This document shows, piece by piece, positions 42,501-45,500 of a stretch of 64,000 nt of DNA. The notes beneath the pieces were generated by a model. It worked only from the letters and a program-made list of their open reading frames with translations. It had not been told where the DNA came from and ran no database searches. The DNA is taken from NCBI GenBank assembly GCA_017654935.2, contig CM065689.1:60077520-60141519 (forward strand), read 5' to 3'. The stretch is from Phymorhynchus buccinoides. Taxonomy: Eukaryota; Mollusca; Gastropoda; Neogastropoda; Raphitomidae. The translations under genes and the position numbers were made by a program. Numbering within the stretch: position 1 is the first letter of the stretch; each line of letters begins with the position of its first letter.

Positions 42501-45500
42501 AATTACACTCAAAACATTAAGTGACCAGAGAGGCCTCAACAAAAGTAAACCTCAAATAATTACACTCAAAACATTAAGTGACCAGAGGCCTCAACAAAAG
42601 TAAACCTCAAATAATTACTCAAAACATTAAGTGACCAGAGAGGCCTCAACAAAAGTAAACCTCAAATAATTACACTCAAAACATTCAATTTAAAGATCGG
42701 TAGACATACTTCGGCACACTGCAACCCAAAACAAAAAAGAGTATTGCAAAAAATAACTATAAGCGCAAAGTTTAAAAACTGTAAAGAGTAAAGAAAACAA
42801 GAAGAAATTGCTCTCCCCTTTTTCTGATAAGACATCTTGTGTGCAATGCAAGATAAAAACAAACCTTCAAAGAGAACATTCTAAAAACAATCATGGAGTT
42901 TTTACAGTTTAAAGATTTACAAATTGTTTTGTGTTGGCAGCACAAATGCAGTAAAACACCATGATTAAACCCTGATATACTCACTCTCGAGCGGGAGGAG
43001 CGTTAACAAATCCAGGCCTTTATAAAGGAATACAAAAAAAGGAAAAACATACCCTTCATATTTAGTTTGCAATAACAACAAAGGCACAGGCATTTTCATG
43101 TAAAAGGATCAGAGAAAATGTGTGTGTGTGTGTGTGTGTGCGTGTGTGTGTGTGTGTGTGAATGTTTGTGAGTGAGTGTGTGTGTGTGAGTGAGTGAGTG
43201 TGAGCATGTGTGTGTGTGTGTGTGTGTGTGTGTGTGTGTGTGTGTGTGTGTGTGTGTGTGTGTGTGTGTGTGTGTGTGTGTGTGTGTGTGTGTGTGTGTG
43301 TGTGTGTGTGAGTGTGTGTGTCAAAAAAAAGAATGTGTATGAGTGCATGCATGTGTGTGTGTGAGCTTTGAAAAGCTATTGTCCGACATGACCTGTGTCT
43401 ATTGAAAACTGTATCAAAGCAACATATACAATGAAATACAGTTGATTTACTTTAAAGCTGAGACAAACTGGACACCACAACCACAACAGGCTAAAGTAAC
43501 AACCCAGCATCGCTCACCTTGAGCGAGAAGTGCGTCGCCGGGGGGAACGGGAACGGGAACGGCGCACCCGCCTGGGTGACTTTGACTTCCTCCTAGAGCG
43601 TGACCTTGACCGACGTCTGCGGCCTCTGGAGCGGGACCTGGAGCGTCTCTTGGAGCGAGACCGCGAACGAGAGCGAGATCTCTTCCGGGATTTGGACCTC
43701 GATCGGCTGACGAATTTCTCTGCAGGACAGATATCAGCGTGTGGGCAAACAAGCCACAGCTAGCTCATTGGAGTCGCAGTCAGATAGTGCGCATCGACCC
43801 CCAAAATACCTTGCAAAAGAAAGGCACACGTCTACTAAATAAAATGACACACACAGTTGGTGTGCTTACTCATCTTTTTTTGTGCAAAACATATTCTCAG
43901 TAAAGTACCCAAAATGGAATTTCCGATTTTTTTAGCCACCATTTTGTTTAATTAGGAACACAGCTGTTGCTAAGTGATTCAATGAAACTTGCTAAAATAA
44001 GCCCCAAATGGCTACGAGATATGGTATAAGGGAAGCAATTGAAGCATGAATGAGTAAGTGTACTTTGACTTTCAACAGTAAGCTCCCTTGAATAACGTGA
44101 TTTGTGTGCATTAAAAAAATTGGAAATTCAGACGGCAGTCTTTGATCGCTTAAACATTCACTCTCATTCTATTGCATATGTGGGAAATGGAGATTGTAAA
44201 AAGATTACACCTTTAAATAATTTGCAAATGAGTATGACACACACCTTTAGAGTTATAAATAACTTCCAATAAATATAAGTAGCGCCACATATCCATATCA
44301 CAGTAAAAACAAGGAGATATAAGTAAAGTCCATAGCACTTTTTTTTTTAAATGAATGAATACCATGACAGTGAAACAAGACCCAGACCCTACTCAGTACT
44401 GGTCCAAAACAAGGGTAATTATTGAGACATAAACCTGCAGCTGCAATGAATACCATCACAGTGAAACAAGACCCAGACCCTACTGGTCCAAAACAAGGGT
44501 AATTATTGAGACATAAACCTGCAGCTGCAATGAATACCATCACAGTGAAACAAGACCCAGACCCTACTGGTCCAAAACAAGGGTAATTATTGAGACATAA
44601 ACCTGCAGCTGCAATGAATACCATCACAGTGAAACAAGACCCAGACCCTACTGGTCCAAAACAAGGGTAATTATTGAGACATAAACCTGCAGCTGCAATG
44701 AATACCATCACAGTGAAACAAGACCCAGACCCTACTGGTCCAAAACAAGGGTAATTATTGAGACATAAACCTGCAGCTGCAATGAATACCATCACAGTGA
44801 AACAAGACCCAGACCCTACTGGTCCAAAACAAGAGTAATTATTGAGATATAAACCTGCAGCTGCAGCCGAGATGAGGGATTGTGCCTCCTGCACTTTCTT
44901 CATGGCCTCTTCCACCTCACGGCCAGACGTCGCTCCATGTGGGGCCAGCGGCTTGTTGATGGAGCTCCTGGCGTGACTCACACTGTAACAACCACAACAA
45001 TTAACACACTTTCTTCGTAGCCTCTGTCATTCCGGGCGTGAGTAACACTGCAATAATAACAATAACAACAACAGTACCATATTTCATGGACCAGCAGGGT
45101 CCGTACGCCACTAGAGAACCCTTGAACCCCTTTAAATTTTGACCCGGCCAAAAAGGTGCTTGAAGACCCTTTAAAATGAGAAACATGTCTACGACCCCTT
45201 GAAAATCATTCTTGCAGACCTGTCGACCTTATGAAATTTCTGTACATAATCACAAAATTAAAAAGGTTGCACTCTTGTACGAATCACAAATGAAACGCAA
45301 CCTGGATCTTAGGAACTATTATTGCCAATGCCCATTCACCGTTCAGCTGACGTCACGCCCGCTAAGCTCACTTACATGTTGTTCCTTTTTCATTCAGGCG
45401 ATCCAAGAGATATGAGAGTGGTTCCAAGATGGTAATGCGGAAGACAAACATGAGTCTTCAGATACCCCACCCCTCTAGTATTAGGATTCTACCCTTTAGC

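Follow-up and report, generated by a model that had tools for sequence, protein, structure and literature searches.

An 84-bp minisatellite repeats the 5' splice site of an exon, in frame, in a SREK1-like gene of Phymorhynchus buccinoides

Does a tandem repeat that carries an exon's own 5' splice site serve to vary the length of a protein, or is it a repeat that happened to begin at an exon edge? This question is raised by a SREK1-like gene of the gastropod Phymorhynchus buccinoides, for which a sequence-only reading had proposed a ready-made length-variable protein segment. The window, i.e. the whole 64-kb stretch of DNA that was analysed, lies 2.4 Mb from the contig end in a genome of 2.12 Gb and carries most of this gene on its minus strand.

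The predicted protein gives an RRM_1 domain match (E 3.2e-8) and resembles annotated SREK1/SRSF11-like members in that an RRM is followed by the EEAMKK linker helix and an RS domain. Among the matches listed (120 of 1,336), identity was 83% to Babylonia areolata over residues 1-235, and 79%, 78% and 74% to Littorina, Batillaria and Pomacea, respectively. Nine predicted exons with AG and GT edges give a single open frame of 510 codons with a terminal stop. Their positions were derived from protein similarity and splice edges rather than from cDNA, in the case of E5 by tblastn with five related proteins, and are as follows (here and below a slash marks a splice edge):

61233-61366, minus strand: E1, part of RRM1, its frame set by the join to the upstream exon
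50936-51036, minus strand: E2
49006-49164, minus strand: E3
47521-47693, minus strand: E4
44855-44982, minus strand: E5, the linker after RRM2, ending ...REVEEAMKKVQEAQSLISAAAA
43518-43719, minus strand: E6, beginning EKFVSRSRSKSRKRS..., RS domain, 202 nt, acceptor CTGCAG/AG
30007-30228, minus strand: E7
10145-10285, minus strand: E8
3227-3500, minus strand: E9

E5 starts behind the acceptor ACAG/TGTGAG and ends in phase 1. The eight introns within the window range from 1,135 to 19,721 nt. A further exon with the donor TGA/GTAAGT was found upstream of E1 in the adjoining 10 kb, and its join to E1 yields PPEGSDQQ, the same as in Babylonia areolata. The donors at 50936, 49006 and 61233 read GTCAGT; a C at +3 is unusual relative to the common donor consensus. 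Long open stretches at 19954-24600 on the minus strand, located in an intron, are unrelated to the SREK1 exons and are possibly the remains of a mobile element.

The repeat in question begins at the 3' edge of E5 and has the following parts:

44351-44865, minus strand: 84-bp donor array, five full units and a diverged sixth, each unit starting GTTTAT and the full ones ending GCAGCTGCAG
44849-44860, minus strand: donor copy 1, CTGCAG/GTTTAT, the inferred native donor, last exon base 44855
44765-44776, minus strand: donor copy 2, last exon base 44771
44681-44692, minus strand: donor copy 3, last exon base 44687
44597-44608, minus strand: donor copy 4, last exon base 44603
44513-44524, minus strand: donor copy 5, last exon base 44519
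44429-44440, minus strand: donor copy 6, with a 7-bp insertion after the donor and diverging from there on, last exon base 44435

TRF calls the 84-bp array at 44397-44865, with 5.6 copies and 99% matches. The unit reads GTTTAT...ATTCATT followed by GCAGCTGCAG, and its last 11 bases are identical to those of E5, so that 10-11 of its bases come from the exon and about 74 from the intron. The minus strand carries CTGCAG/GTTTAT at six places, with the first intron base one below each last exon base. Copies 2-5 of the unit are identical to one another and copy 1 differs from them at two sites, read as Y/C and S/P in the exon frame; since both differences change the amino acid, there is no sign of coding constraint. 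From -6 to +6 the six donors do not differ, and each of them leaves phase 1. With the E6 acceptor at 43719 as the partner assumed for all of them, E5 with 0, 1, 2, 3, 4 or 5 units joined to the rest of the nine-exon model remains in a single frame that is open up to the terminal stop in each of the six cases. Without any splicing, the frame of E5 runs through the donor array and stops at 44298. The anatomy claimed in the sequence-only reading is thus confirmed: the six donor positions are exact as last exon bases, the unit holds the exon's last bases together with its donor, and all products are open to the stop of the gene.

The 13-mer GCTGCAGGTTTAT of the unit occurs in at least 19 places of the 2.12-Gb genome, six of them in the donor array; three of the other sites were examined and are unrelated, one of them lying within a different minisatellite. 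Among 27 other loci, with the array loci themselves left out, neither the donor-array unit nor the unit of a second array described below had a match of more than 15 bases. The sole Pfam match for five units was PF10379 nec1, which scored 19.5 against a cut-off of 27; as it is below the cut-off and no stretch passes alone, we took it as chance and rejected a known protein domain. No Rfam match reached gathering scores in the window, and a known structured RNA was likewise discarded.

How surprising is an open unit of 28 codons? The exon frame was open in 37.6% of 20,000 dinucleotide shuffles in which the length was fixed at 84 bp and 10 exonic bases were kept. In the window the period is divisible by three in 8 of 24 tandem arrays (window arrays merged by hand), and 9 of the 24 have at least one stop-free frame out of six. 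The odds of an open, in-frame unit are therefore about 1 in 8 (37.6% x 8/24). The donor array itself is far beyond chance, the openness of its frame is not. The unit peptide is hydrophobic, with a 19-residue mean hydropathy of 1.86. Hydrophobicity was considered as a special property of the unit and rejected: of 7,618 open shuffles, 44% also pass a hydropathy threshold of 1.6, and 23% reach the observed value. Because many open shuffles are equally hydrophobic, this property is only a mild argument against function.

The same gene carries a mirror image of the donor array. Only two of the 17 exon edges in the window recur (minus strand, up to 4 mismatches in 24), namely the E5 donor and the E1 acceptor, the latter in the following array:

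61314-62889, minus strand: acceptor array, 24 copies of TTTGTGCAG/GGG; start set by hand, TRF start 61505

The full unit of 76 nt comprises the first 53 nt of E1, with a few changes, and 23 nt that end in the acceptor; in most copies the E1 portion is shortened, and the spacing is 61, 66 or 76 bp. Read in the frame that the upstream exon imposes, each of the 23 extra acceptors leads to a stop after 12-27 codons, while the native acceptor leads to none. As 23 of 23 extra acceptors run into a stop, edge amplification in this gene is blind to frame. One edge array out of frame and one in frame is the chance expectation, and it is unlike what a length-control device would need. The acceptor array is perhaps the more striking of the two. 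Our literature searches, which were not aimed at exactly this pair and left subscription journals mostly uncovered, returned no published case of a donor array and an acceptor array in one gene.

Both arrays lie in DNA that is unusually rich in minisatellites. Under a rule of period ≥20 and ≥3 copies, 23 tandem arrays make up 52% of the window; a random sample of twenty 10-kb stretches from eight contigs (64,104 of 200,000 bases being N) contained 16 arrays, which cover 5,881 of 135,896 readable bases (4.3%). The density is uneven: under a slightly looser rule, arrays account for 56% of the 10 kb beyond the low end of the window and for 0 and 6% of two 10-kb stretches beyond its high end. A preference of arrays for exon edges was tried as an explanation and discarded, the placement test showing the opposite. 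With the hand-set start at 61314, window arrays touch 2 of 17 exon edges (1 of 17 with the TRF start 61505), compared to 9.2 expected at random, and only 0.5% of 20,000 placements were as low. Exon edges are thus, if anything, avoided. The donor array is explained by its minisatellite-rich surroundings.

Regarding the strength of the amplified site, a G at +5 is present in eight of the nine donors of the gene model and missing from that of E5. On a donor matrix the E5 donor scores 2.4, versus 5.8-10.4 for the three other donors scored. The U1 pairing energy of the E5 donor copies is -5.6; seven other tested donors range from -4.7 to -11.4, and the idea of the E5 donor as an outlier in U1 pairing was accordingly rejected. 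Because the six donors match from -6 to +6, donor 1 has no advantage in sequence over the rest. A few phase-1 GT sites score slightly above the E5 donor on the same donor matrix: 44362 (2.64), which lies in the diverged sixth copy and likewise gives an open product, 44920 (2.88), which lies within E5, and 44242, 44161 and 43939 (2.8-3.3). Within the intron between E5 and E6, the site that most strongly resembles a donor is 44244 (AAG/GTGTGT), located 53 nt past the first in-frame stop after the array; its use, if it occurs, would yield a long poison form of E5. Skipping of E6 would, as computed from the gene model, shift the frame and lead to a stop within a few codons.

The explanation that we consider probable is that a young minisatellite was seeded by chance on the 3' edge of E5, which is spliced mainly from its first donor. 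As we infer the order of events, a single duplication would have taken the last 10-11 bases of E5 together with about 74 intronic bases, and unequal exchange or slippage would then have expanded this unit to six copies. The donor at 44855, which adjoins the exon body, would be joined to 43719 in most transcripts, giving ISAAAA/EKFVSRS, and the downstream copies would act as competent decoys with low-level use. The array is presumably tolerated because 84 bp equal 28 stop-free codons, so that slips lengthen the protein and cause no frameshift; such in-frame slips may be the reason for its survival. By analogy with the human Alzheimer's-linked gene ABCA7, donor 1 would be expected to dominate and the others to be used at a low level, and skipping of E6, analogous to the exon skipping there, is a conceivable outcome.

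Unlikely, in our view, is a main donor further downstream, most simply 44435, nearest to E6, with an exon that would be constitutively longer by up to 140 residues. The identity of the six donors from -6 to +6 would permit this, and classical work on duplicated identical donors often favours the copy nearest the intron's acceptor, which counts for 44435. The available part of PMC8724738 contains no statement of such an acceptor-proximal preference. Against it, the second donor of ABCA7 is little used according to the accessible text of PMC5954066. E5 would moreover reach 548 nt with five hydrophobic repeats.

It is doubtful that each unit is a tiny intron and the array is removed unit by unit, an amplified AG/GT arrangement of the Rogers type that would retain CTGCAG, two residues, at every step, or no sequence at all with splicing to the last AG. 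All full units begin with GT and end with AG, the span GTTTAT...TTGCAG within the unit being 78 nt. The pyrimidine content of the unit acceptor (53%) does not fall below that of the native acceptors of E1, E3 and E5, and a branch-site-like yTnAy (TTCAC) lies 22 nt upstream. A multiplied AGGT segment in fission yeast, with an intron across several copies, offers a parallel (PMC4974935). This model requires introns of 78 nt in a gene with introns of 1,135 to 19,721 nt, and a single splice from donor 1 that takes out the entire region is the simpler account.

We assign only a small chance to a regulated, length-variable segment of the protein whose size, 28 to 140 residues, would depend on the donor chosen, perhaps under the control of SR proteins, SREK1 itself among them. 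The frame is kept across copies as expected of a regulated alternative-donor cassette, all six products being in frame (6/6), and the same linker varies in length in Littorina saxatilis (two forms, with or without GSVYAIS, the short form coming from a different annotation), in a Branchiostoma hybrid (five forms in seven isoform records) and in Glandiceps (two forms). Since the length of the RRM2-RS junction varies among records of one species, linker inserts are tolerated in principle. The conservation in relatives that would likewise be expected of such a cassette was not found in protein records: the unit peptide is present in none of 145 proteins examined (with 120 of 1,336 matches listed) and in none of 8,000 candidates scored by a targeted protein search, and in Babylonia, the closest among the matches listed, ISAAAA is followed by GHVTEKF without the unit. 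The acceptor array of the same gene ignores the frame, the open frame has odds of about 1 in 8, and a hydrophobic stretch in every unit (1.86) is odd for an RS protein. The claim of a ready-made length-variable device is therefore unsupported by the E1 array (23/23), by the openness odds and by the unit peptide (0/145); such a function is unproven and unlikely.

There is a slight chance that GCTGCAG/GTTTAT is not the true E5 donor, which would lie elsewhere, the array only resembling an amplified donor. The four extra residues (GHVT) before EKF in Babylonia suggest a donor or acceptor displaced by 12 nt in that species; the E5 donor is atypical at +5, and some GT sites in phase 1 slightly exceed its matrix score. 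Of the candidates, 44920 would remove conserved residues, 44242, 44161, 43939 and 44244 are past the in-frame stop at 44298, and none matches the exon end of the relatives as closely as ISAAAA. Very improbable is a copy-number-tuned, self-reading splice counter in which, both kinds of splice signal being amplified by minisatellites, SREK1 activity would shift site choice, the acceptor array lower output, the donor array lengthen the linker and allele length set the response.

Minisatellites at exon edges provide natural series of identical competing splice sites. An in-frame donor series and an out-of-frame acceptor series in one gene form a natural test of position alone between identical sites. 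Should splicing make use of downstream donors, individuals with different repeat copy numbers would differ in the length of the protein. For gene models the array calls for caution, as automated annotation could add 28-140 spurious residues.

In the literature searched we found nothing closer to the donor array than the VNTR in intron 18 of ABCA7. According to the accessible text of PMC5954066, the first two bases (GT) of this VNTR are the donor of exon 18, and its length ranges from about 12 to 427 units. The form that keeps one 25-bp unit makes up 2 +/- 1% of transcripts, has a shifted frame and is prone to decay; the main effect of VNTR length is on how often the following exon is skipped, which reaches 45% in one brain region, and not on retention of units (PMC5954066). 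Given the decay of this frameshifted form, 2% may understate the use of the second donor. Similarly, the array of E5 adjoins its exon and repeats that exon's donor edge, six times; unlike the 25-bp unit of ABCA7, which is not a multiple of three (PMC5954066), its unit of 84 bp is in frame, and its six copies are known from one assembly.

Other systems share single features with the E5 array. In the AGGT intron gain of Rogers the duplicated unit is bounded by AG/GT, as is the E5 unit (GTTTAT...CTGCAG), and in the intron gain of potato RdRp the duplication crosses an exon-intron edge, as it does here (excerpts of PMC4974935). The Rogers model duplicates exonic sequence and leaves the protein unchanged (PMC4974935); in contrast, about 74 of the 84 bases of the E5 unit are intronic. 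The SREK1-type linkers of Littorina saxatilis, the Branchiostoma hybrid and Glandiceps show in-frame length differences at the same junction, but unlike the E5 units the inserts are short and, as far as protein records tell, without visible repeats. The minisatellite CeRep25B is located in introns of C. elegans genes that undergo alternative splicing, a statistical motif association (PMC4039745); like the E5 array it is a minisatellite beside exons, in its case alternative ones, with no amplified donor described in the accessible part of that paper. Taken together, the E5 array looks like an ordinary young repeat that began by chance at an exon edge, of a kind already known from ABCA7, and the acceptor array in the same gene adds interest beyond a donor array of the ABCA7 type.
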